64,000 bases of DNA, from NCBI GenBank assembly GCA_027575765.1, contig JANBPT010000005.1:1-64000 (forward strand). The letters run 5' to 3'. This document shows, piece after piece, positions 29,662 through 51,473 of this stretch (its first letter is position 1; the number at the start of each line of letters is the position of its first letter). This DNA comes from Tieghemiomyces parasiticus (taxonomy: Eukaryota > Kickxellomycota > Dimargaritomycetes > Dimargaritales > Dimargaritaceae). Made by a program: the position numbers and the translations under genes. The notes below the pieces were generated by a model. It saw nothing but the letters and a program-made list of their open reading frames with translations. It had not been told where the DNA came from and made no database searches.

Positions 29662-31214
29662 ATGCAAGCCGTTCATTTCGCGGGTCTTTGCCTAGCTACC
29701 TTGGCAGTTGCGTTAGGGTTACCAGGCGCTTCCGGAACCTCACTTGAACACGTTCCCTACGATGTACTACCAGCTATTTTGAAACACTGCACGCTGACGG
29801 ATCTCCGCCAATGCCTACTCACTAGCAAGGCTATCCGCATAGCCACCCGAACCACGCGTGAATTCAAAGTGGTAAAGGTAGGTGTTCCGTTGCCAAAGAT
29901 GGCTTTTGTAGAGTGCAGTTTGACGACCCTTGGCTCCCATTGTGCCATTAGGTGCTTGTCTCTTTATTGGTCGCCATAACTCGTCCCCTGCTTTACAGCT
30001 ACCTCGTACCAGCCCCAGTGCCACCCGACTCTCTTATTAAGAACTAAATAGATATATACATATATCCAACCTTTTTTCCTCGCTCGCAGCAACTTGACGA
30101 TTACCGAAACAAAATCCTTGCCTGCGAGTCATTTTTGACCGGGTCGTCCACCCTCACGCGCCAAGGTGAGCCGGTACCTGAGGAGGAGAAGCAGTGCGCT
30201 GAGGTCAAACCCGCCTACTTTCCTTTCCTACGCAACCTGTTCTACCGGAATTCCATCGAAGCGCGCCTGACGGCCTTTTCCATCTCGTCGCTCGGCACTA
30301 TCACCCCCCGGCGGTTGCGCCGCACCCCGGCGAACCTTATTGGGGAACCGCCGGAAACCGTTGAAGTCGAACCCGTCAGCGACGAAATAGCCGCCGACCA
30401 CTACCGTCGCCACTTCTTGCTGGACTTAGGACACCAGAATATAGAGTTTGCGGATCAGCTGGCGGCGTTCCGCCCGGCTCTCCGCGACATCAATGCCGCC
30501 ATGTTTCCTCGTCTCCTTCAGGTTGGATTGGCCCCACCCGCTCGTTCCACGTTAGACCCCATCATGTACGCCCTGGCCAGCGGCCACGACCGATTCCTGG
30601 CCGCCCTGACGCGGTTCGTGGCGCTTGAGCCTACCAAACACGACCTGCAGTACCAGCTCCACCGGGAGATACCGGAATCGCACTACAGCATGGCCAAGGA
30701 GCTGTTCTTCTTGCACGAGGAGCGTGTCATGAGCAATGCTTTGCTGGCGGGAATGCGGAACAGTCCCGAGGGGCAGGAACGCTGGCAGGAATCGCTTCCC
30801 AATGAGTTGGCCAGTCACCTCAGCGTGGCGGTAGCCACCGGGCTGGCCGGTCTAGGTCACTTTGATGAGCTACGACGGTACCTAGCGGCCATCGACAATG
30901 TTCTCTACCAGGATAGACTCACCCTCACGAGTAGAAATCGATTGGTACCGGTCGTCATCGGGGCGGCAGCGGCGATGAACCAAGTAAAGATTCTCCAGCA
31001 TTACACAGCTCTCATGCAGCCTATTGCCGTCCGAGTACTCCAGGAGACCCTGCTCAAGAAGGGACTCGTTTTAGCCGCCGCGCGACTAGTCGAGGCGGAG
31101 AAGTGGGCCCATCACAGCGCCGCCATGGTCGACTTAACGATGATAGCCAAAAACCAGCTGGTTTTCTACAACGATGACCAGCAGCTGTTCTATTTGAGCT
31201 ACGGGCCCTTATAA
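29662..31214 (+). CDS. secreted F-box-like protein, 446 aa
   Basis: Two exons, 29662-29877 and 30090-31214, with a 212-nt intron (GTAGGT donor, CTCGCAG acceptor) in phase 0. Residues 1-25 are a textbook signal peptide: hydrophobic LATLAVALGL, then small residues GASG as cleavage site. An F-box-like segment follows at once (about 27-65): LEHVPYDVLPAILKHCTL, then TDLRQCLLTSKAIRIATRTT. This matches the usual pattern of LP..vl..I......DL..C...SK.ir. The rest is about 370 residues of helical sequence without recognisable repeats, containing runs such as ALASGHDRFLAALTRFVALE. The gene at 37.7 kb (minus strand) has the same architecture and the same intron position. Classical F-box proteins work inside the cell in SCF ubiquitin ligases, so a secretion signal is odd. 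Function unknown. F-box assignment is from pattern only. Confidence 0.85.
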
Positions 31215-32179
31215 CGGGCAATCTAGGTCATCTAGGAACCTGACACCTGCTACGCTGAACAAGTGTATTGGCTTAGCTAGGGGGGTGGCCTTGTTGTATC
31301 ACCGCTTTTTTTTATTTTTATTTTTTTGGTGTTTGTTCTGAAATAAAGTTAAGAACACTCCCATTCCTAATGTCGTGTCAATGCGCCACAGGCTGACCAT
31401 GTAACATCCAAGAGCTTGATGTCAGCCAGACTGCCCATCGGCCGAGAGGAATTTTCCGCAGCGACAACAAAGGCCGATCATGAATTGTGGCCTTGGCGGT
31501 CGCAGTTATGGATTGTGCCAGGGGACCGGCTAGAGAAGCTCCTTCCTCCGTGATGGCACCTGAGGACGGTGGAAGGCAAAGGAGACCTAGTCTTGCTGAC
31601 TTCTTTGGGGGGGGAGGCTGGTCACCCCTTGCATTGGGAAGAGAAGGTGCAGTACTAGAGTAATGCCATGCTGTGCAGTCCAGCCCGCTTGAGGGCCAAA
31701 TGGTAGCGCTGGGGCTGTGGATTAAATGGGGCGGGGAAGGAACAAAAATGGGTATCCCGTGACTGCCCGCCCCCCTTCTCCTGACCACCAGTGTCGCTCC
31801 TCTATTCCTCTCACCTTTGTAAGCCAACATTAGCCCAACGTGGAGTGGTCGACTGGCCCGCCTTTGAGCGGGTTAATATCTTTAAGGGCCTGTGCTGCTC
31901 AAGGCCAGGTTACGTGGTGGAAGTTTCTGTCTACAACATAGGCAAACTCTGGTTGTCCTTGTTAGCACCCACCACCTCCCCTGCCGAGGTCTTAGTCGCT
32001 TGCCGCTTATCCCGTTCGCCTGCAACCGACCACGAACCCGTCGGCCTCATATTCCCTGCTGCATTCCCATTCCCATTGCTACTCCAGAGTCACAACTGCT
32101 GCCGCCCGCTATAGCTTACAACGGCCACCGTACGGTGTTCAACCTTTCCGACGATACTTCTCCGTACCGACAGGACTCC
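31215..32179. other. spacer with poly(A) signal and T-rich tract
   Basis: T-rich run at 31304-31327, then AATAAA at 31342-31347, about 130 bases after the F-box-like stop, a plausible 3' end signal. The minus-strand frame at 31378-31830 starts with ATG but has no coding bias or motif and is not called. The last few hundred bases are the PQ-loop gene promoter. Confidence 0.5.
31342..31347 (+). terminator. AATAAA polyadenylation signal of the F-box-like gene
   Basis: Canonical hexamer 128 bases downstream of the stop codon at 31214, following a T-rich stretch; position suits the 3' end of the upstream transcript. Confidence 0.5.
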
Positions 32180-33327
32180 ATGGCTGAGCAATGCGTTCAG
32201 CCGCCCCATCACGCCTACCATACCTGCCTAGGAGTGGTGCTGTGTCTGGGCACCTTCGTATCGTACTTACCTCAGGTATGTGCAGAGCACTGGGCTTGAA
32301 AGACGGGTATCTATGGCAGCATCCCGACCCGTCGTCGGTCCCCTCCCCCCGCACCTAACCTCGTACACACCGCTCTAGATAACCTTGTCACCTCCTTCTC
32401 TTTCCTCGCCCACCCGCCCGCAGTGCGTCAAGATCGTGTCGCGCCGGTCAAGTGAGGGATACAGCCCCTACTTCCTTCTCCTGGGCACGGTATCAGGGTT
32501 CGGCAAGGTCAACAACATCATTCTCCTACAGCTGGGCGCTTTCCTCTGCTGTCCCACCTGGGGCGTCGGATCCTGTCTAATCAACACCTTGGGTACCTGG
32601 CAGATCTTCATCCAGTGGTCTGCGTTCTTCGCCGTCTTTGTCCTGTACTACTTATATTTTCCGGGCCACCTAAAGGATGTCCCGTCTGTCGCGGCGAACA
32701 ATCTGATCCAGGTATCGCCCGAATGGGCCGCTGCCCGCGTCGTGGGACTCGTCGTGGTCTGCCTAATGACCGTGACCACAGCGGTTAGTGTGGCAGTGGT
32801 CACCAGCTATGGGCCACAGGCGTGGGTCGTGCGGTCCTGGGCGGGGGCCCTGGGTATCGCTTCGTTGGCCATTGCCTGTTTGCAGTACGTCCCACAGATA
32901 TGGAAAACGTGGCACCGCAGGGTAAGTAGTTCCGGTAGAAGGATCTATACACCACAGCAAACGCAATTTCCCTGTGGTGACCGCCGATCGGTAACTGACG
33001 TCCAGCAATTATCACCACTCCCAACTTCACCATCCCCATCAATTATTTTAGTCCGTCGGCGCGCTTAGCATCCCCGCCATGTTGCTACAGACCCCAGGAG
33101 GGTACCTGTTTGCCTACTCCATCTACGTGCGACCCGGGGCCAACTGGACATCGTGGATCTCGTACGTGTTAGCGGCATCGCTCCAGGGAGTGCTTCTGGT
33201 ACTGTGTATTGCCTGGAACTACCGCGACCGACGGCGAGAGACCGCAGTACTGGACGGCCATCGCTCGGCAGAGCAACGTTCGGCCGCGACCGAACGTAGC
33301 ACCCTTCTCACTTCCGATAGGCCCTGA
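32180..33327 (+). CDS. PQ-loop repeat membrane protein, 289 aa
   Basis: Three exons, 32180-32275, 32424-32921 and 33052-33327; introns of 148 and 130 nt, both in phase 0. The start at 32180 is the first ATG in the frame. Seven hydrophobic segments are expected, with two PQ-loops. The first is FVSYLPQCVKIVSRRSSEGY, crossing the first splice junction. The second is CLQYVPQIWKTWHRR and RSVGALSIPAMLLQ, crossing the second. The tail (about 255-289) is hydrophilic and charged, and may carry a dileucine-type sorting signal (STLLTS). PQ-loop proteins include cystinosin and vacuolar cationic amino acid exporters (YPQ family) as well as receptor-like members. Substrate cannot be told from sequence; a vacuolar or Golgi membrane transporter is likely. 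It is followed on the same strand by an MFS transporter gene. Confidence 0.88.
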
Positions 33328-34001
33328 TTCATCTTGCGTGCGACTGTCGCTGCGGGCTTGCGGCCCTTGTTTAACAGCACTTACGGGTTGGATGGGTATA
33401 CCAAGGCAGTCCGGTATTTCTATTGTGTCGTAACCTATGAAAGTGAGACTCCATTCCGATTGGTTTTCGCGAGGATGAATGGAAGCATATTGTCAACTAT
33501 CCTTGTCACCCTGCGTACACACTTGAATATATTGGCTTTGTGGCCTGGGCCCGAATTTATCCGACCTGCCAGATTAATAGGGCAACGCAAGTAGCAGGTA
33601 CCCGCGGTTGCAGCATCCTACGATCCACGGGCAACCCCCTGCGGAACAACTTCAAGAAATCCCGCGCCGCGTCATTTACGGAGGAACAACCATAGCGGCG
33701 TGGCCTCGGGATTACGCACCCAGGCCCCCTTCCGTTCGTTGTTCCTCCGTACTCGAGACTGGCTTCCGCTGGCCATCGGCCATTGACCGAGAATAGGGTG
33801 CCGGTATGGTCCTTCTCGTTGAAACTGCTAGACCATCTTGGTTATCTATCCTACGAGCTGAGGTCGCTACTATCAGATAACACGTCCACGGTGCGTCTTC
33901 AACCCGCAGATTCCCCTCGCCCTGTACGTCTCTTCTCCATCCCCTTTTCACCGAGCTCCGACATTGAAGCCCCCCTCTCTCTCCTACTTTTCGACATCAG
34001 T
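33328..34001. other. spacer before the MFS gene
   Basis: 674 bases with no gene. The frame of the MFS gene is open back to 33783 but has no ATG before 34002. The bases ending at 34000 (CATCAG) look like an acceptor, so a 5' UTR intron is possible. Confidence 0.45.
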
Positions 34002-35522
34002 ATGGGCCAGCACTCGAGTCCCGGCGCCGGGCCTTCGGGCGCGGTCAGGTCTCGCCTCATCCGCCACATCTTCATCGCCCTCCTCCTGGACATCCTAGCC
34101 TTCACCACTATCCTGCCCATTCTCCCGCGCCTGCTTCAGGCCTACCAAGACGATGGCGGCAGCCCCGTCCTGGCGTGGTTCATCGGGTCAGTCAATGGGT
34201 TTAAGGCCTACCTGACGGGCCAGCCCGCACGGGCCGAGGCTGACACGGTACTGGTGGGCGGACTCCTGGGCTCCCTATTTTCGCTGCTCCAGTTCCTCGT
34301 TGCCCCGGCCATTGGTCGGCTAGCCGACCGCTTCGGCCGCCGGCCGGTCCTGCTATTCTGTCTCGCCGGCAATATCCTCGCCAGCGTCGTCTGGCTCGGG
34401 TCTCGCCGCTTCGAAATGTTCCTGGTGGCCCGTGTTCTGGCCGGACTGAGCGAAGGGAACGTCCAACTATCGCATGCCATGATTGCCGATATCACCCCAC
34501 CCGCCGGTCGGTCTCGCGGGATGGCCTGGGTCGGTATCGCCTTCGCGACGGGCTTCACGTTGGGCCCACCCCTGGGCGCCTACTTTGCGTCGTTGGACCC
34601 TACCGGCCCCGCCGGCGCTCAGGCCTGGTTTGGATCTGCTGCACCCCGGATGGCTCCGTATCCGCTCGCGGCGGTGTTCACCCTCGTCCTGCTCGGCCTA
34701 GAATTCCTCTACATTTATGCCTACATTCCCGAAACGATCGGGCTGGGCGACCACACCAAGGCCGATACAACCTCGGCTACTGTCCCGGCGTCGGTGACCC
34801 CGTCGGCCACCCCGAGCGCTGAGACAGCCGCTGCCATTGACGTTGCCACCGAGTCACGGATCCGGGACCTCGAGTACATCCACTTGCTCTACCTGTTCGC
34901 TTTCTCGGGTATGGAGTTCACTCTACCGTTCCTGACATTCGAAAAGTTCCGATTCACCCACATGCAGCAGGGCCAGTTCCTCGGTCTAATCGGGATCCTT
35001 TCCACTATATTCCAGGGCGCGGTTGTCCGGCGGGTGGCCCACCGCTGGGGCGAAAAAACCATGGTCAGTCTTGGTATGCTCACGTGTGCCCTCGGTTTCG
35101 TCACAATTGCCTTCGGGGCGGAGCCATCCGCGGCGGTGGCTGCCGGCCATCAGTCCGCCGGTCTACCCTGGGGACTTTACCTGGCCGCCGTGTGTTTAGC
35201 CATCACCTCGGCCACCGTGGTCAACTGCATGACGGCACTAGTGTCCATCCTGTGCAGCGGCGGTAACCGCGTCGCGGGTGTGGACCTGGATACGGCTGAG
35301 ACCGACGCCGCTTGGAATGCCCGTAAGGGTCAGGTCCTGGGTGATTTTCGCTCCTTGGGCCAACTGGGCCGCGCCTCGGGGCCTGTGGTGGCCTGTACTA
35401 TCTACTGGCTGAAAGGGTCGGCCTTCGCCTACGCCGTTGGAAGCGTCTACATCGCCGCCGTCCTCATGGGGTTCCATTTCAAGATCCAGCAGCCCCAATA
35501 CGCCAAACCTAAAACGCAGTAA
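34002..35522 (+). CDS. MFS transporter of MFSD10/TETRAN type, 506 aa
   Basis: Single exon from the ATG at 34002; the open upstream extension is Ser/Pro-rich and lacks an ATG. About twelve membrane segments. The first is IFIALLLDILAFTTILPILP. The MFS motif A loop reads GRLADRFGRRPVLL. Next are GLSEGNVQLSHAMIADITPP and FATGFTLGPPLGAYF, and after a Thr/Ala/Ser-rich central loop comes YLFAFSGMEFTLPFLTF. The last half ends with GDFRSLGQLGRASGPVVACT and YWLKGSAFAYAVG. These pieces match vertebrate MFSD10 (TETRAN, an organic-anion exporter) segment by segment, so this is probably its fungal orthologue. The substrate in fungi is unknown. It is convergent with the secreted F-box-like gene ending at 35844. 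Confidence 0.9.
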   Translation: MGQHSSPGAGPSGAVRSRLIRHIFIALLLDILAFTTILPILPRLLQAYQDDGGSPVLAWFIGSVNGFKAYLTGQPARAEADTVLVGGLLGSLFSLLQFLVAPAIGRLADRFGRRPVLLFCLAGNILASVVWLGSRRFEMFLVARVLAGLSEGNVQLSHAMIADITPPAGRSRGMAWVGIAFATGFTLGPPLGAYFASLDPTGPAGAQAWFGSAAPRMAPYPLAAVFTLVLLGLEFLYIYAYIPETIGLGDHTKADTTSATVPASVTPSATPSAETAAAIDVATESRIRDLEYIHLLYLFAFSGMEFTLPFLTFEKFRFTHMQQGQFLGLIGILSTIFQGAVVRRVAHRWGEKTMVSLGMLTCALGFVTIAFGAEPSAAVAAGHQSAGLPWGLYLAAVCLAITSATVVNCMTALVSILCSGGNRVAGVDLDTAETDAAWNARKGQVLGDFRSLGQLGRASGPVVACTIYWLKGSAFAYAVGSVYIAAVLMGFHFKIQQPQYAKPKTQ

Positions 35523-35843
35523 TCTCAGACGCCTACTTAGTCTGATTTTTTGTATATCGGTAAGACCACTGCCTCTTCGTGGGATGAGGTCGAAATAACC
35601 ATGTTGAAATACTTTAACTTCACACCATATATATATAATTAGTACGTGGTAACGAGTTTATCTGCGGTAGTTGGCTATCTCCAAAAGAAAAATAAGGTCA
35701 TTACAAAAGAGAAAATATGGGTAGTTTAGAAGCCAAAAACGATACTGAGATTTGTAGGCTCTAAAAATGGTACATCATGGTGCCTCCTTGAGACACGAAG
35801 CATAATAATACCGCCTTATCTGACACTTGTCCTGTGGCCCCAT
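35523..35843. other. convergent 3' spacer
   Basis: 321 AT-rich bases between two converging stops, with a short TATATATATA tract near 35628. It should contain both polyadenylation regions; no gene. Confidence 0.6.
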
Positions 35844-37712
35844 CTAGCGGCGCGGTTGGCCCCTATTCAATGAAGGCGACTTGTTATACCTCCAGGTTTC
35901 CTTGCGCGTCTGGCGAGTCAACCTGCTCGTCAACAGCTGCTGATTTCTAGACAGCCTGTTGCTAACCAATGGATAGGACGCCTGGCCAACCTGAATGAGC
36001 GTGGGGGCGTACACAAATTGCATGAATCCGCCCTGGTTATCCAGATACACGTTGGCCGGGAAGTATTCGTCAGGAAACAAACGGGAATCCGTACCCCTAG
36101 TGGACTGCTCCGTCAATGATTGATGACACCGGTCGCCAGTCAGATCCGATACCAAAAAGTCGTACCCGGCAGAACACCAGTTCCTGACTAGAAGCTGCCA
36201 AACACCTTCGGATTTAGTCCCGTTGATGTCTACCAAATTTCTATCACGTCGGATCCACTCGGCCAGGCCAGACACGCGCAGCGCCTGCTCAAAATATTTC
36301 AAGCCGTCGTGATCTTGGTTACGCACTGCGAGCATGATGACCCAGTTGAGGTGGCCATAGATGAACCGGGAGGCCCTCTCAAGATTGTGGGCCCCCACGA
36401 GTACGGGGCGCACGGCATTGAGAATATCCAGGACGGCGTCACTGCGACCTGCGTGGTAGAGTCGCCAGGTGACCCCCGCCAGCAGGGTGTGGGCCGCACC
36501 AGCGATGGGATTGAGCCGATGGGCCATTTTCAAAACGTGCTGTATCTGGTGCAAGCTGTTGAAGAGGCCCGGTTCTGGAATACCTGGACTGAATAGCGGA
36601 TGGAAGGTCTTCATCAGACGGCGGAGATCCGGCGCGAGGTCCGACTGGTCACTGAGGAGGTGCTTGTAAATGGCGCTGGTCACGTATTCGTCGAAAAACA
36701 TGCAGAACAGGGTTTGGAGCGTCGCCGTCGGGAGGTACTTGGCAGCGGCGACGAGTGGGTAGTTCAGTGCGAGTTGATTTTCATGGAGGGCATCCAAATC
36801 CAATAGCTGGAATTTATCCATGGCGAGGAACGGGTTGCCGATGTTCTCTCGGGTGAAGGTCTGGAAGGTGTCCATACTGGCAGGGGTTTGACCTTCCGCT
36901 TTATCATCAGGCCAGTGCCTCCACGTTGCGTCGAGGATATAAGAAACTAGTTCAGTGCGGGCCAGGGTGAGCCACACATCTGCCACGTTGTTGATGTCGA
37001 GCGGCTTGATACCGGCCTGGAGGGCGGGGTAGGGTATGCCTACACCGTTATCTTCCTCAGCCTCGGAATCCTCGTCGTCAGAATAATCCCCATCGGTGCC
37101 AGCGTCGGCTCGGGCAAGGTCAGCTCCTGGCGCTTCGGGACTCGTAATGACCGGGAATGGATTCAGTTGGCCGTGGACGTTGAGCTTTTGGCCTTTAATT
37201 TCCTGCGGCAAGGGTGCTGGATACCAAGTAGCGTATTTCCTGGCAAAATCCTCAGCGGTACGTGCGTTCTGGTAGGCGACTCAAAGTGATAACGTTGGTA
37301 AAAGTAAGTTAGTACTGTATGTGTTTGAAGGCGGCCGATTACGAGGCGAGTAGCCTTCGAGTAGAACAATGGTCTAGATGTGATGCAAACAGGTTCGGAG
37401 AGATTGGACGACGAAGGAAAAAAAAACAGGGGGGCCATTGTGGGCCGGATTTTCAAAAAATAATTCTAGGAAACATACCCACAATGCTCTGGATGATTGA
37501 GTGGCCTGGCGGATGCCCCAACTAGTAGCCGAAAAATAGTCCTTATCGCGGCTGTCTAAATACCCGGAGATCAAACTGACCAACTCCGCCGGGAGCCGCT
37601 GCAGGCCCGTAGCTGGGGCTGTATTGTACTGGGGTATATTGGCGGTCACAGGGGTATGCAGACACAGGGTAGCGGTGGCTATCGCTGCCGTTACAGTGTA
37701 AACATAACGCAT
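35844..37712 (-). CDS. secreted F-box-like protein, 552 aa
   Basis: Two exons read on the minus strand: 37712-37479 and 37268-35844. The intron is 210 nt (GTATGT donor, CTACCAG acceptor) in phase 0. Residues 1-24 form a signal peptide (VYTVTAAIATATLCL, then TPVTA). An F-box-like motif follows: LQRLPAELVSLISGYLDSRD, then YFSATSWGIRQATQSS, ending at the exon boundary exactly as in the gene at 29662. Exon 2 begins NARTAEDFARKYATWYPAP. It has an acidic linker (DYSDDEDSEAEEDNG, about residues 140-155), then about 330 residues of helical sequence, for example AAHTLLAGVTWRLYHAGRS. The C-terminus is basic. The F-box-like sequence is closer to the consensus here than in its paralogue. No known enzyme domain seen. 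Partner and destination are unknown. Confidence 0.85.
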
Positions 37713-45972: not shown

Positions 45973-46550
45973 CGACGCTCATCAGCGGACTAATCGAGTA
46001 GTGTTACGATATCAATGAAGCTACATATCACTGGATACCTGCTCAGTGCTGATATAGCACATGGGGTGCCTGTAATCAAAAGGTCTGGGTCAAGTGTGGT
46101 TTGAGGGAGGAGGGCAAACGCGGCCGCGGCCATCGTGTGGTAGGACCTGGCAAGTCGCCAATTAACCCAGTGGCACCCCGGGGCGGGGCGGCCAGTTACA
46201 GTTAGAGATATGGGTCGGCAGAAAATCGGTCCCCTGAGGCTGGGGCGCCGCTCTTCGATGGTGGCAGGCAGGATATCAAGTCACGTGTACTCGGCAAACC
46301 ACTGTAAGGGACTGCCATACTCCGCCGAGGTGAAAGAGGAAGGTGGTCAGGGTGACCACGGCTCCGCCAACGCTAACCTGGCTGGGCCAGGTCCGCTCAT
46401 CCGGTTCAGTACCCACTTGTTGCCCTACGTCCGACGGCGTCACTTGAGTTCTGACCAGGCCCTTCCGCAATCGAACCACCCTTACCATTTCCCATTCGTA
46501 CTCTACCCTGAACTGCCACTCCCGCTCCGCCACATCCCTTCCTCCCACCG
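45973..46550. other. spacer between AIF and UGGT genes
   Basis: 578 bases, no gene; the last 100 bases are pyrimidine-rich and form the likely UGGT promoter/leader. Confidence 0.5.
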
Positions 46551-49500
46551 ATGCCTCCGCTCCGGCGCATTACCGTCGGAGCACTGGGGCTCTGGCTACT
46601 GGCGGCGGTTGCCAGCCCCGCTCTGGCCTCCCCGCCCGTCCGGACCATCCTCAAGGCCAGTTTTCCGGCGCCGCCCTTAGCCCTGGAACTGGCTGAGTAC
46701 GTCGCGTCCGAAAACCGTACTGCCTACTTGCCCCTACTGGCATACCTGACCGCCCCGGCCCAGCTTGCCCTGGCTGACGAGCCCCTGTACGAGCGCGCCC
46801 TCGCCTTCATTCGGAAGGAGCGTATGCTGCCGCATGCCACGTCCACCGCTGTGATGTCCTGGGGTGTGGCGTTACACGTGGCGGCTCCTGCCGTGGAAAT
46901 GTTTTACCAGTACTACCGCGAAACCGTCGTCCCTGAACTTATCACCGTCAACCCAGCGTTCGATCCGACCTGTCCCGTATGGACTGCGTACAACGAACGC
47001 CAGTACTGTCAGCTGGCCGATCTCCGTCAGGCCCTGGGCTTTCCCGCGACCACCACGGCTATTGACCTCGCCGCCGACTTTGCTCAGCTCGACCTGGGGT
47101 TCAGTATCCAGGCCATCCCGCGGCGGTTCCCCTTCGACCACGTCTACCCGATCCGTGCCGCGGGGTCAGGTACGGTGTCCACGGGGGTCACATTTGTACT
47201 CTACGGCGACGCGACCGATTCGACCTTCCATCCCACTCTCATCTTTTTGCACACGCTCGTTGATCACGTCCGGGGGGTGCTGATCATCCGCCCCCGGCCT
47301 CCGGTTACGGACCATCGTCCAGATCTGAACCTCACCGGCTACGGCGTCAGCCTCAGCATCAAGAGTACCGAGTACAAGGTTACCGATGACCGTTCTGGCG
47401 AGGCTGCCTCGGTCGACGACGATGCCGACATCGCAGACCTGGGGACCGCAGAGGCTGCGGACGATATCCTAACTGAGCTGGAGACAGCCATACCTCAGGT
47501 CACCCCGCTGACTAAGGATGAAGTAGCCGGCTTGGCCGTACAGGCCGCTGATTACATTCGGAACCATATGGATCCGCTGCTAGCTCTCACCCGATTGACC
47601 CATAACTTTCCTAAGTACGCCCACCCGCTGGCGCAGCGCACTCAATCCCCCAAGCTCCATGCGACGGTCAAGGCCCTCCTGCGCCACCGGCTCGAACCCG
47701 GCCTCTGGCTGAATGGAGTCCCACTTCGTCACAATCCCATGCGCCCGTTGAATGCCTTCAGCCTGCACGAGGCCCAGCGCGCCGAGCTCCGTACTGTTCG
47801 CGCCTTACTCGCCCTACCACTGGACCTAGCTCAGGTCCATGCCTTCCTTACTGCCCCCACTCTGGCTACCCCCCAGAAAGTTCCCACCCAGCACCTGTGG
47901 CAGCAGGAACCCACGATTGAACCCACGACCAGCGCCCTCCTGGCGAGCCGCCAGGACCCTTACGCCGCCGCCCTGGCCGCCGGTACCCAAGTCTACGACG
48001 TGAGGGATAGTGAACTAGCCAAACCCGTCGTGGCGTGGTGGAACGACCTGGAGCGCGATCCGGCCTACGCTAGCTGGCCTAAACTTGAATTGTTCCTCCG
48101 TCCGGTGTACCCGGGGCAATTACGGGCGATGAGCAAGAACCTGTGCTCCGTGCTTTTCGCCGTTGACCTGTCGACAGCTGCCGGGCTGGAGACGGTCGCA
48201 GAAGACGTGATAGCCAATGTTGATCGCCACATTCCCCTCCGGTTCGGTGTTCTGCCGCTAGTTAGCCCCGAGGGCGACACGGACGCCCCCGCTGATACCA
48301 TGGCCCGCCTGTTTTACTATGTGATGGCCAATTACCCGCGGTCCCAGGCGGCCGAGTTGCTGATTACCATTCAGCGTAAGATCCGCCGCAATCCTTCGGC
48401 CGACGTGGTCACCCTGGTCCGGGCGGCGTTCCAAGATTTCGCCACGACCTACCCAACGGGTGACACAATTCCAAACTTCGATTCTGTTGCGGGGCCCCGG
48501 AGCCCCTACCATTCTTACCTGGCTGTCACTCGGGACCTCCAGAACCGCCTGGGGATCACACCCGCCGAGGGAGTCTTTTTTATTAACGGTCGCTACTTTG
48601 ATCTAGCGGACGGGTTCCGCAACCGCGTGATGGCGGTGTACCAAAGTGACAGCGAAATCCTGGCCCTGGCGTACTTCAGCGGTCAAATCGACGACAGCAC
48701 TGATCTGTACGCCTATTTCCTGACCCGCCCGGGCGTACTCCGCACCCGTAGCCCCTGGGTTTTCCCCACGGCCGTCCACCCGCTGGTCGTGGCCAATCTG
48801 CTACGCGACCTCCCACACCCACCTCCGCCAGCCCTGTGGACCTCTGCAATTCCCTACTTCTATCCGCTCGGCCCCCGTGTCCCGACCCTGGCACTGCGGC
48901 CCTGGATCTCTGTATGGATTGTGGGTGACCTCCGCACACCGGCCGTCCGCCAGGATCTCGTGGCCGCCCTACGCTACGCCGCGTCCGATCCGGCGGTGCG
49001 TGTTGCTTGGTTGCCTAACCCTTCGGTGGCCGCGGCCTGGACCACGGACGATATGGAGGTTGTGGCTCTCGCTCGGACGATTGCCCGCGCGGCCGCTGTT
49101 CTCCGGGACCTCTACGAGCCCCAAGCCTTCGGCCTTCGCCCCGGGGAGACTATCCCGCCAGCCATTTTGGAGCATTGGCCGACCGTGGTCGAGTGCGTCC
49201 TGGTCCACGCGACCGCAGCGGACGACGCTTCGGTCGTGACCTGTCTATCCACAACCTTTACCGATAAAGTGCTGACCGAACTTCTCACTTTGTCGCATAC
49301 GCTGACCACCGCGGCTTCCCCAGAGAACTGGTCCGAATTGGCCCGTGCGGCTGGTCACGCTTTGGAACTAGACGACACCGCCCGTGCCCTGGTGGTCAAC
49401 GGCCGCGTCATCACAGGCTTTACTGACGTCACCCGGTTAACCGTCGAAGAATTGGGCCTCTTGGTGAGCTATGAGATTGGCGAACGAATCGGTCCAGTAG

Positions 49501-51473
49501 TCACTACCTTGGACGGGCTTCAGCGGCTCGGGGACGCCCAGGACACAGCCGCCCTGGTGGAACACGCCAAGCGCGCAGACATGGTCCTCCTGGCTGGCGC
49601 CGTATACTACAGCAGCACGGCCTCTACCGTCACAGACGGCGGCCCGGACGAGCCCACCGGCCGGCAGGACCCCACCGCGCCGTTCGCCGGTAACGCCCTA
49701 ACCTTCACCCACGGTGACTGGGACCAAGCCTGGCTGCGGTTTACAGCGGTGATCGATCCCGTCAGTGAGAGCGCTCAGCTGTGGAGTGCCCTTCTCCACT
49801 CGGCCGCTGGACTGCCCTTCACGGCCGTACGCGTCACGCTACTCCCAGAACTGATCCACGATGAGCTCCCGCTAACCCGCTTCTATCGCTACGTGGGGCC
49901 CGTGCACCCGGTTCTGAACCCGCGCGCCGCGGCCCCGGCCGCTATCTTCAGCCGCCTGCCTACCGAACCACTCTATACGCTGGCCATGGACACCCCGTCT
50001 GCTTGGATGGTCACACCCGTAGCCTGTGCCTACGATCTGGACAACCTGCAGCTGTCCGCACTCACCACCCCGACTGCCCTCCGCGAAGGCGTGCGTAGCG
50101 AGTTCGTCCTCAAGCACATCATGGTGGAGGGACACTGCCAGGACCTCACGACTGGGTACCCACCCCGTGGTCTCCAGTTGGTCCTCGGCACCCCCGCCGC
50201 CCCGGCTCACACGGGTACCATCGTCATGGCCAACTACGGCTATTTCCAGTTCTTGGCCGCCCCTGGTGTCTGGCAGCTAGGGCTGCGCCCTGGCCGCTCT
50301 GCCGAGCTATTCGCCTTAGAAACCGTGGGCCACGCCGGGTGGACTCCCGGTGCGGTCGCTGACGTCCGCTCGGAGATTCTTCTCAACTCTTTCCAAGGTA
50401 CCACTGTGCGGCCCCGTGTACGCCGCCGTCCCGGCCGTGAGGCCGATGACCTCCTGGCTAGTGCGGGCACGGACGATACCGACGGGACGGGCGACAGCTG
50501 GCTTCAATCGGCTGTCAGCTGGGTGGACAACCGGCTTCCCCTACCAGCATGGCTACCCGGGGTCCAACTGGCCGCACGCCGCCGTCGAACCGTCCATGTC
50601 TTCTCGGTGGCATCCGGCCACCTGTACGAACGCTTCTTGGCCATCATGATCCTCAGTGTCCTGCGCCACACGCAGAACCCGGTCAAGTTCTGGTTCATTG
50701 AGAACTTCATGTCACCATCCTTCAAGTCGTTCCTGCCCGCCCTGGCAGCCCGCTATGGGTTCGCGTACCAGCTTGTCACGTACCAGTGGCCTTACTGGCT
50801 TCGCGCACAACGCGAAAAGCAACGCATCATCTGGGGGTACAAGATTTTGTTTTTGGATGTCCTCTTCCCGCTCGACCTCGACCGGGTAATCTTTGTCGAT
50901 GCCGACCAAATCGTGCGTACCGACCTGGCAGATTTGGCCGCCCTCGACCTGCAAGGTGCCCCGTACGGATACACGCCCTTCTGCGACAACCGGCCCGAAA
51001 TGGACCGGTTCCGGTTCTGGAAGGATGGCTGGTGGGCCCAACACCTCGCCGGACGACCCTATCATATCAGCGCGCTGTACGTCGTGGACCTCCGCCGGTT
51101 TCGTCAGCTGGCCGCCGGTGACCGACTCCGTCAGCAGTACCAGGGTCTCAGCGCCGACCCCAACAGCCTCGCCAATCTCGACCAGGATCTGCCCAACCAC
51201 CTCCAGCACCTCGTCCCCATTTTCTCGCTCCCGCAGGAATGGCTCTGGTGCGAGACCTGGTGTAGCAACGAGTCCCTCGGTCGTGCCAAGACGATCGATC
51301 TGTGCAATAACCCGCTCACCAAGGAGCCCAAACTGGAGCGTGCGGTCCGGCTGCTCCCCGAATGGCAGACCTACGACAGCGAGGTGGCCCGCCTTCGCGC
51401 GGAGGTCGCCCAGGCTGCTGCCACCGCCACCGCCACCACACTTATCTCCGGTGCAACACACGATGAACTGTAG
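46551..51473 (+). CDS. UDP-glucose:glycoprotein glucosyltransferase (ER folding sensor), 1640 aa
   Basis: One uninterrupted frame of 1640 residues. Signal peptide at 1-26 (GLWLLAAVASPALA). The large N-terminal half (about 30-1330) holds the thioredoxin-like and beta-sandwich regions that sense misfolded glycoproteins; recognisable spots are DRHIPLRFGVLPLV and FFINGRYFDLADGF. The catalytic GT24 domain runs from about 1348 (VHVFSVASGHLYERFL) through FVDADQIVRTDL with the Asp-x-Asp metal site near 1450, then YGYTPFCDNRPEMDRFRFWK and NLDQDLPNHLQH. It ends with WLWCETWCSN. The final four residues are HDEL, the ER retention signal. The enzyme adds one glucose to Man-rich glycans of unfolded glycoproteins so that calnexin rebinds them. 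Length is normal for the family. The lack of introns over 4.9 kb is striking beside the spliced neighbours. It is convergent with the DHTKD1-type gene, 268 bases away. Confidence 0.95.
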   Translation: MPPLRRITVGALGLWLLAAVASPALASPPVRTILKASFPAPPLALELAEYVASENRTAYLPLLAYLTAPAQLALADEPLYERALAFIRKERMLPHATSTAVMSWGVALHVAAPAVEMFYQYYRETVVPELITVNPAFDPTCPVWTAYNERQYCQLADLRQALGFPATTTAIDLAADFAQLDLGFSIQAIPRRFPFDHVYPIRAAGSGTVSTGVTFVLYGDATDSTFHPTLIFLHTLVDHVRGVLIIRPRPPVTDHRPDLNLTGYGVSLSIKSTEYKVTDDRSGEAASVDDDADIADLGTAEAADDILTELETAIPQVTPLTKDEVAGLAVQAADYIRNHMDPLLALTRLTHNFPKYAHPLAQRTQSPKLHATVKALLRHRLEPGLWLNGVPLRHNPMRPLNAFSLHEAQRAELRTVRALLALPLDLAQVHAFLTAPTLATPQKVPTQHLWQQEPTIEPTTSALLASRQDPYAAALAAGTQVYDVRDSELAKPVVAWWNDLERDPAYASWPKLELFLRPVYPGQLRAMSKNLCSVLFAVDLSTAAGLETVAEDVIANVDRHIPLRFGVLPLVSPEGDTDAPADTMARLFYYVMANYPRSQAAELLITIQRKIRRNPSADVVTLVRAAFQDFATTYPTGDTIPNFDSVAGPRSPYHSYLAVTRDLQNRLGITPAEGVFFINGRYFDLADGFRNRVMAVYQSDSEILALAYFSGQIDDSTDLYAYFLTRPGVLRTRSPWVFPTAVHPLVVANLLRDLPHPPPPALWTSAIPYFYPLGPRVPTLALRPWISVWIVGDLRTPAVRQDLVAALRYAASDPAVRVAWLPNPSVAAAWTTDDMEVVALARTIARAAAVLRDLYEPQAFGLRPGETIPPAILEHWPTVVECVLVHATAADDASVVTCLSTTFTDKVLTELLTLSHTLTTAASPENWSELARAAGHALELDDTARALVVNGRVITGFTDVTRLTVEELGLLVSYEIGERIGPVVTTLDGLQRLGDAQDTAALVEHAKRADMVLLAGAVYYSSTASTVTDGGPDEPTGRQDPTAPFAGNALTFTHGDWDQAWLRFTAVIDPVSESAQLWSALLHSAAGLPFTAVRVTLLPELIHDELPLTRFYRYVGPVHPVLNPRAAAPAAIFSRLPTEPLYTLAMDTPSAWMVTPVACAYDLDNLQLSALTTPTALREGVRSEFVLKHIMVEGHCQDLTTGYPPRGLQLVLGTPAAPAHTGTIVMANYGYFQFLAAPGVWQLGLRPGRSAELFALETVGHAGWTPGAVADVRSEILLNSFQGTTVRPRVRRRPGREADDLLASAGTDDTDGTGDSWLQSAVSWVDNRLPLPAWLPGVQLAARRRRTVHVFSVASGHLYERFLAIMILSVLRHTQNPVKFWFIENFMSPSFKSFLPALAARYGFAYQLVTYQWPYWLRAQREKQRIIWGYKILFLDVLFPLDLDRVIFVDADQIVRTDLADLAALDLQGAPYGYTPFCDNRPEMDRFRFWKDGWWAQHLAGRPYHISALYVVDLRRFRQLAAGDRLRQQYQGLSADPNSLANLDQDLPNHLQHLVPIFSLPQEWLWCETWCSNESLGRAKTIDLCNNPLTKEPKLERAVRLLPEWQTYDSEVARLRAEVAQAAATATATTLISGATHDEL

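Follow-up and report, generated by a model that had tools for sequence, protein, structure and literature searches.

Genes A and B lie in inverted orientation in the 64,000-nucleotide stretch of DNA analysed here (the window), from Tieghemiomyces parasiticus, a fungus of the order Dimargaritales. Both carry a first exon in which a signal-peptide-like start is followed by an F-box-like segment, and this exon recurs in a large family across the genome. We judge the chances to be about even that both genes are members of a family of secreted F-box effectors using host Skp1, like the SSGP-71 family of the Hessian fly, which is large and salivary. F-box proteins normally act in the cytosol or nucleus, and SCF hijacking is known from bacteria and from a gall insect on plants. 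The account of the Dimargaritales in PMC10386755 describes the formation of haustoria and hosts that belong mostly to the Mucoromycota.

In spliced translation, gene A (446 aa, ATG at 29662) and gene B (552 aa, minus strand) each consist of two exons (Table 1). Their layout agreed with the original prediction: the two stand in inverted orientation 4.6 kb from each other, a PQ-loop gene and an MFS gene occupying the interval, and their phase-0 introns of 212 nt (A) and 210 nt (B) fall at the same place. The donor of gene A sits shortly 3' of the F-box, as it does in relatives.

Table 1. Positions of the features of genes A and B in the window, with the basis of each assignment.
Feature	Positions	Strand	Basis or remark
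Gene A exon 1	29662-29877	+	Haplotype copy on C707, structure identical
Gene A intron	29878-30089	+	212 nt, phase 0, GT..AG
Gene A exon 2, C-terminal domain, family I	30090-31214	+	Iterated HMM
Gene A putative signal peptide, ~residues 1-24	29662..29733	+	Hydrophobic/small-residue N-terminal pattern; cleavage site is an estimate
Gene A F-box, residues 29-63	29746..29850	+	PF00646 profile, below cut-off
Gene B exon 1	37479..37712	-	Haplotype copy on C817
Gene B intron	37269..37478	-	210 nt, phase 0
Gene B exon 2, family III domain	35844..37268	-	blastp to C465 exon 2
Gene B putative signal peptide, ~residues 1-24	37641..37712	-	N-terminal pattern; cleavage site is an estimate
Gene B F-box-like segment, residues 37-74	37491..37604	-	Family F-box HMM; Pfam under cut-off

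The original claim for both genes was an N-terminal signal peptide with an F-box-like segment behind it, and both elements were recovered. Signal peptides were called by a rough rule of our own rather than by SignalP (a hydrophobic stretch with small residues at -3/-1), and both N-termini passed it. Exon 1 of gene A alone matched PF00646 with 19.4 bits (E 9.5e-4), just under the 20.5-bit cut-off, and the whole protein matched with E=0.015; in the genome search the same site was also matched by PF12937 (18.6 bits, under cut-off). The segment of gene B gave E 0.04-0.09 with the Pfam F-box, and a SusD-like match to the same exon, which we judged to be chance, scored about equally. Against an HMM of 27 relatives from which B was excluded, the gene B segment reached 24.7 bits, and none of the 1813 scored shuffles (2000 made) scored as high. 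A and B were the only strong matches to the family F-box HMM in the six-frame window, A itself being part of that HMM, and the third-best ORF reached 5.6 bits.

Across the family, profile searches likewise recovered F-box similarity, with relatives above the Pfam cut-offs. Among members with a signal peptide, C465 (31.0 bits), C813 (26.0 bits) and C448 (21.8 bits) exceeded the PF00646 cut-off of 20.5, and C588 (28.5 bits) exceeded the PF12937 cut-off of 24.3; the latter was also exceeded by C1290, C321 and C694 in the genome search. From the 83 PF12937 matches of that search, 20 stretches were chosen for their short open frames. When 35 exon 1s were compared with 24736 Pfam families, F-box families were the sole matches at E<=0.01. 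An AlphaFold model of exon 1 placed helices at 36-42, 45-54 and 56-71 with low confidence (pLDDT 51).

The rough rule was passed by 32 of these 35 exon 1s, as against 8 of 127 other first-ATG ORFs of the window (>=60 aa), one of which encodes the ER enzyme UGGT. When residues 2-30 were shuffled, 679 of 1750 N-termini still passed, and composition therefore carries part of the signal. By this rule, the family N-termini resemble those of classically secreted proteins. The shuffling result would suit the view that the hydrophobic N-termini or the F-box arose by chance or through faulty annotation, as would the position of A and B, taken alone, under the Pfam cut-offs, and two of the three public gene models found, P0001, which starts inside exon 2, and P0003, which is partial. 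We consider this view very improbable and already largely refuted: the same succession of signal peptide, F-box-like motif and phase-0 donor was present in 45 of 65 exon-1 stretches, exon 1s pass the rough rule more often than the other ORFs, the signal-peptide codons are under selection (see below), and the first exon and splice of public model P0002 match our earlier model of its relative C1039. Signal peptide and F-box were also found together in 8 of 10 further places and in L008.

The 35-row set leaves aside C488, C496, C176, C756 and C1109 (F-box exon, no readable signal peptide, although C756 nonetheless passes the rough rule), C853/C822 and C680 (F-box not visible), C783 and its allele (neither element found), and C652, C642 and the second C680 stretch L082 (5' end open or cut). 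Also outside it are C1083 (not family), C441 and C543:108124 (not resolved), C1285, C1283, C1062 and C236 (no recognisable feature in the sequence retrieved), and second copies that we regarded as allelic or closely related; a few of the 35 rows may nevertheless be alleles.

Selection was estimated from pooled haplotype pairs. Codons 1-22, which cover the signal peptide, gave dN/dS 0.41 without any indel in 16 pairs, one of which (C81/C909) may represent paralogues rather than alleles; a Fisher test of synonymous versus nonsynonymous changes gave p 0.0014 on rounded counts. Upstream of the ATG, the 16 pairs contained 71 gap columns, including 29 from C704, whose second stretch starts too late; without C704, 42 gap columns remained in 15 pairs. 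Selection on codons 1-22 speaks for translation from the upstream ATG through the hydrophobic segment. Neither result named with the original prediction as refuting it, RNA evidence for a start beyond that segment or profile searches without F-box similarity, was encountered. For exon 2, dN/dS was 0.34 (0.26-0.44) in 13 pairs. Judged by these haplotype comparisons, the family evolves fast.

Some members would fit a different location. The proteins might act inside the fungus itself, the N-terminus being a signal that works poorly or conditionally, or else anchoring the protein in a membrane, and the F-box serving the parasite's own SCF. C488, C496, C176, C756 and C1109, which share the gene structure without a readable signal peptide, speak for this, as does C783, which has no recognised exon 1 and evolves slowly (dN/dS 0.04). 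However, most exon 1s have signal-peptide-like starts that are under selection, and 21 of 29 exon 2s lack a TM-like segment, 8 having one. We regard an intracellular role as rather improbable. When 23 family-I exon 2s were placed in a tree, the four rows without a signal peptide required two changes, on long branches, a pattern that fits gain and loss alike.

It is also conceivable, though in our estimate unlikely, that the proteins are secreted while their F-box-derived helices have lost Skp1 binding and cap a secreted helical domain at its N-terminus, the domain acting extracellularly or at the haustorial interface. The wide variation of F-box scores speaks for such a cap: PF00646 matched 19 of the 35 exon 1s at E<=0.01 and left 16 unmatched, and P0002 had no Pfam F-box even at E<=1. 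Constraint on exon 1 beyond codon 22 is weak (dN/dS 0.67), weaker than on either the signal peptide or exon 2, and C853 and C680 have retained the signal peptide without a recognisable F-box. On the other hand, several members keep an F-box above the Pfam cut-off although family-I exon 2s are just 20-27% identical to that of A, and an LPxE(L/I/V)-like core recurs among members.

The two genes had originally been called paralogous. This was borne out for exon 1 and the intron position, which are common to both, and not for exon 2, where no homology between A and B was detected (blastp E 1.8; hhalign P 0.22). Neither an iterated HMM nor a C-terminal motif matrix joined exon 2 of B to family I; it matched exon 2 of C465 in a two-sequence comparison (blastp E 3e-5). 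Because exon-2 homology is undetectable, A and B are not recent duplicates. A C-terminal resemblance between the two exon 2s, noticed by eye, was dropped, since 1182 of 5000 shuffles gave an equally high score.

Genome-wide searches revealed a larger family than first noted. The expectation of a locally expanded family was supported as regards expansion, which is genome-wide, and was not supported as regards a local cluster, the members being spread over many contigs. By hand tally, with both haplotypes counted, there were 89 match places in three exon-2 families (I, 53; II, 26; III, 10), 6 of the 10 family III places being weak (E 9e-4 to 0.043). Not counted were exon-1 rows, further pieces of a gene already represented, two fragments (C585:24043 and C602:6500), and C954, C1029, C678:12844 and C421. 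In the iterated HMM, 23 of 29 sampled exon 2s joined family I. The second-exon domains had no convincing Pfam match. Exon 2 of A was modelled by AlphaFold as mostly helical with low confidence (pLDDT 41), its best PDB profile matches (ankyrin, E 0.27; DARPin, E 0.35) were not significant, and cysteine and glycosylation-sequon counts were uninformative.

In a protein search with A, 7995 candidates were scored and not one reached E<=10, and there were three protein-search hits in all, each from T. parasiticus; these searches were word-limited, and lineage restriction is no better supported than they allow. As far as these comparisons reach, the family appears large, fast-evolving and lineage-restricted in a parasite, parasitism being taken from the description of the order. 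An expanded, fast-evolving family in an order of haustorial mycoparasites is consistent with effectors delivered into a host.

If the proteins are such effectors, we infer four steps: secretion, host-cell entry, Skp1 binding and target recruitment. The signal peptide would export the protein from the parasite, and the F-box, a short spacer after the cleavage site, would dock onto the host fungus's Skp1. Through its helical second-exon domain, the protein would capture a host target and present it to the host SCF ubiquitin ligase; alternatively, this domain might block the host's own SCF adaptors. The genome contains one ordinary Skp1 gene, the copy read of which lacks a signal peptide; hence no home-made secreted partner was seen. 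Against the effector reading stand the scores of A and B under the Pfam cut-offs, the missing Pfam F-box of P0002, and one batch of 13 exon 1s counted as positive, five of which reached only 7.0-9.5 bits with the family F-box HMM; so do the members lacking a readable signal peptide or a recognisable F-box, the weak constraint on exon 1 past codon 22 and the low confidence of the single-exon AlphaFold models. In its fullest form, to which we give somewhat less than even odds, this reading has dozens of secreted F-box adaptors entering host hyphae and plugging into the host Skp1-cullin ligase. Such inter-fungal ubiquitin hijacking would have originated when a signal peptide was placed before cytosolic F-box genes and the first exon was joined to several unrelated-looking second-exon domains. 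If true, SCF hijacking would extend to fungus-on-fungus parasitism. The family would also be a candidate effector repertoire for the Dimargaritales, for which the accounts of the group consulted describe none.

SSGP-71 and RipG7 provide a precedent for F-box effectors. As described in PMC4617103, SSGP-71 effectors of Mayetiola destructor typically carry their F-box at the N-terminus, ahead of a repeat domain, with the F-box missing from one member or more, and they interact with host Skp proteins; Ralstonia RipG/GALA effectors combine an N-terminal F-box with a repeat domain, and RipG7 interacts with host SKP1-like proteins. On that description, the T. parasiticus family resembles SSGP-71 in its N-terminal F-box and in having F-box-less members. 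SSGP-71, however, belongs to an insect on cereals and carries leucine-rich repeats, whereas the present second exons, from a fungus of a mycoparasitic order, lack a convincing Pfam match. The N-terminal F-box is likewise shared with RipG/GALA, but those are bacterial type III effectors with LRRs, in contrast to the eukaryotic secretory-route signal peptide here. Another early-diverging fungus, Choanephora cucurbitarum, also has a lineage-specific F-box expansion, an orphan PF12937 family of 31 members, the text on which does not state secretion (PMC5238444).

Conventional F-box genes of the same genome (PF00646/PF12937, long open frames) share the F-box family by profile. In seven inspected loci (L001-L007, two of them allele pairs) the F-box was not immediately preceded by a signal peptide; L008, inspected beside them, proved to be a family member. 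In the conventional loci the open frame runs on past the F-box, unlike in the secreted-type family. Two conventional F-box gene pairs also evolved more slowly, with dN/dS of 0.06 and 0.12 compared with the value for family exon 2 given above.

Genes A and B, two window genes that each carry a signal-peptide-like start and an F-box-like stretch in exon 1, have their introns shortly 3' of that stretch. The genome assembly that we searched (46.5 Mb, 1363 contigs) seems to contain both haplotypes, because many matches occurred as contig pairs. Gene A gave 38 matches in it, and gene B gave four, namely B itself and its second haplotype with two exons each. With A, B and relatives as queries, a hand tally counting haplotypes separately reached 89 distinct places (53 + 26 + 10) in three exon-2 families (I, A-type; II, C1039/C694; III, B/C465); six of the last ten places were weak matches.

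Positions of genes A and B and of a slowly evolving family-I second exon
Feature	Location	Strand	Details
Gene A	29662-31214	+	two exons, phase-0 intron of 212 nt, 446 aa
Gene B	37712-35844	-	two exons, phase-0 intron of 210 nt, 552 aa
Slow family-I exon 2	C783:27218-28279, C410:109391-110452		L015, L016; haplotype dN/dS 0.04

The original prediction was of a local expanded family; the expansion was borne out but lies spread over many contigs, a signal peptide and an F-box-like motif both being found in 45 of 65 exon-1 stretches (alleles counted). In the first set, 22 of 27 loci had both features upstream, the exceptions being L015, L016, L025, L030 and L035. Among 20 stretches chosen from 83 PF12937 matches, ten had both, six had an F-box exon with no readable signal peptide, and four were cut, unresolved or non-family; where the exon was present (16 stretches), the donor lay 38-45 residues beyond the point at which the profile match begins. 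The third set yielded both in 13 of 18 (five scoring only 7.0-9.5 bits with our own F-box HMM), a signal peptide alone in one and nothing in four. Both features were also present at eight of ten further places, one of which (L064) had no clear donor, and at L008.

An F-box exon with a phase-0 donor and no readable signal peptide was observed at L077 (C488), L081 (C496), L084 (C176), L088 (C756) and L035 (C1109); these loci may reflect either gain or loss of the signal peptide. Conversely, L025 (C853; allele L030, C822) and L121 (C680) kept the signal peptide with no F-box seen, like one SSGP-71 effector reported in PMC4617103.

Our rough signal-peptide rule (a hydrophobic stretch with small residues at -3/-1) was passed by 32 of 35 exon 1s; of the 127 other ORFs in the window, 8 passed it (Fisher p 6e-23). 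Shuffled N-termini also passed in 679 of 1750 cases, so composition accounts for part of this signal, and the C756 exon, judged to lack a signal peptide, nonetheless passed. Selection on codons 1-22 is the stronger evidence for a signal peptide: across 16 haplotype pairs, dS was 0.101 and dN 0.042 with zero indels (synonymous/nonsynonymous contrast, p 0.0014). For the rest of exon 1, dN/dS was 0.67 (p 0.012).

The predicted F-box similarity held in Pfam searches for several relatives, which exceeded the curated cut-offs, and fell short of them for A and B. Exon 1 of A alone scored 19.4 bits against a cut-off of 20.5, and B gave E 0.04-0.09. Against a profile of 27 relatives excluding B, however, B scored 24.7 bits, topping all 1813 scored shuffles. 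At E<=0.01, 35 exon 1s matched PF00646 in 19 cases, PF12937 in 13 and F-box_4 also in two, and no non-F-box Pfam family. Signal-peptide members above the curated cut-offs were C465 (31.0 bits), C588 (28.5), C813 (26.0) and C448 (21.8).

Protein searches returned three matches, all from T. parasiticus (IWQ60_ numbers). The first exon and splice of the public model P0002 matched the C1039 model that we had made beforehand, and P0003 is a partial model. P0002 had no Pfam match whatever at E<=1; its motif, in family II, is therefore F-box-like at best. P0001 (IWQ60_009135) starts within exon 2, and its annotation lacks the signal-peptide and F-box exon visible upstream (L083).

An HMM built from 12 A-type second exons recruited 23 of 29 sampled exon 2s, including four whose exon 1 has no readable signal peptide. 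C1039 and C694 formed a second family (E 1e-44; 30 genome matches), and exon 2 of B paired with C465 (E 3e-5, a two-sequence comparison). C652 sat at the edge of family I, with an E of 0.001 that became 0.0097, close to what the best shuffle reached, and C1076 grouped with none of the other sampled exon 2s. Pfam offered no account of the A-type domain: it gave three matches, each to a single member, of which the best was to Rsm22 (E 0.0041). Separate profile matches of the domain, to an ankyrin and to a DARPin, were not significant. The AlphaFold model of A exon 2 was mostly helical (pLDDT 41). Pooled exon-2 dN/dS over 13 pairs was 0.34 (0.26-0.44); two conventional F-box gene pairs gave 0.06 and 0.12. 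The slow C783/C410 pair, upstream of which no signal-peptide/F-box exon was recognised, is perhaps of a cytosolic ancestor type.

Signal peptide, F-box and helical domain, in that order, are the SCF-adaptor arrangement plus an export signal. T. parasiticus belongs to the Dimargaritales (Kickxellomycotina), which form haustoria and mostly attack Mucoromycota, according to a review (PMC10386755). Its Skp1 is one ordinary gene on two contigs, with a fragment on a third, and the copy read (C114) starts without a signal peptide. An exported F-box would thus need Skp1 outside the parasite, that is, the host's. The main alternative is that the proteins are secreted with the F-box fold reduced to a cap. 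The need for outside Skp1 favours secreted effectors working through host Skp1, to which we give an even chance; the whole chain that would lead from secretion to target degradation is one that we infer.

F-box effectors as such are already known, from Hessian fly (SSGP-71) and Ralstonia (RipG/GALA), as described in PMC4617103. No fungal or Dimargaritales counterpart was described in the titles and abstract openings found, among which subscription journals were thinly covered; the search took in parts of PMC10386755, PMC6784888, PMC5238444 and PMC11997596.

A PQ-loop gene and an MFS transporter gene separate A from B, and a fungal-type Zn2Cys6 regulator sits farther away. The window also holds a UDP-glucose:glycoprotein glucosyltransferase gene (46512-51473, +). 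Translated from the first ATG, its product begins with a segment resembling a signal peptide, which makes it a handy positive control for the rough rule.
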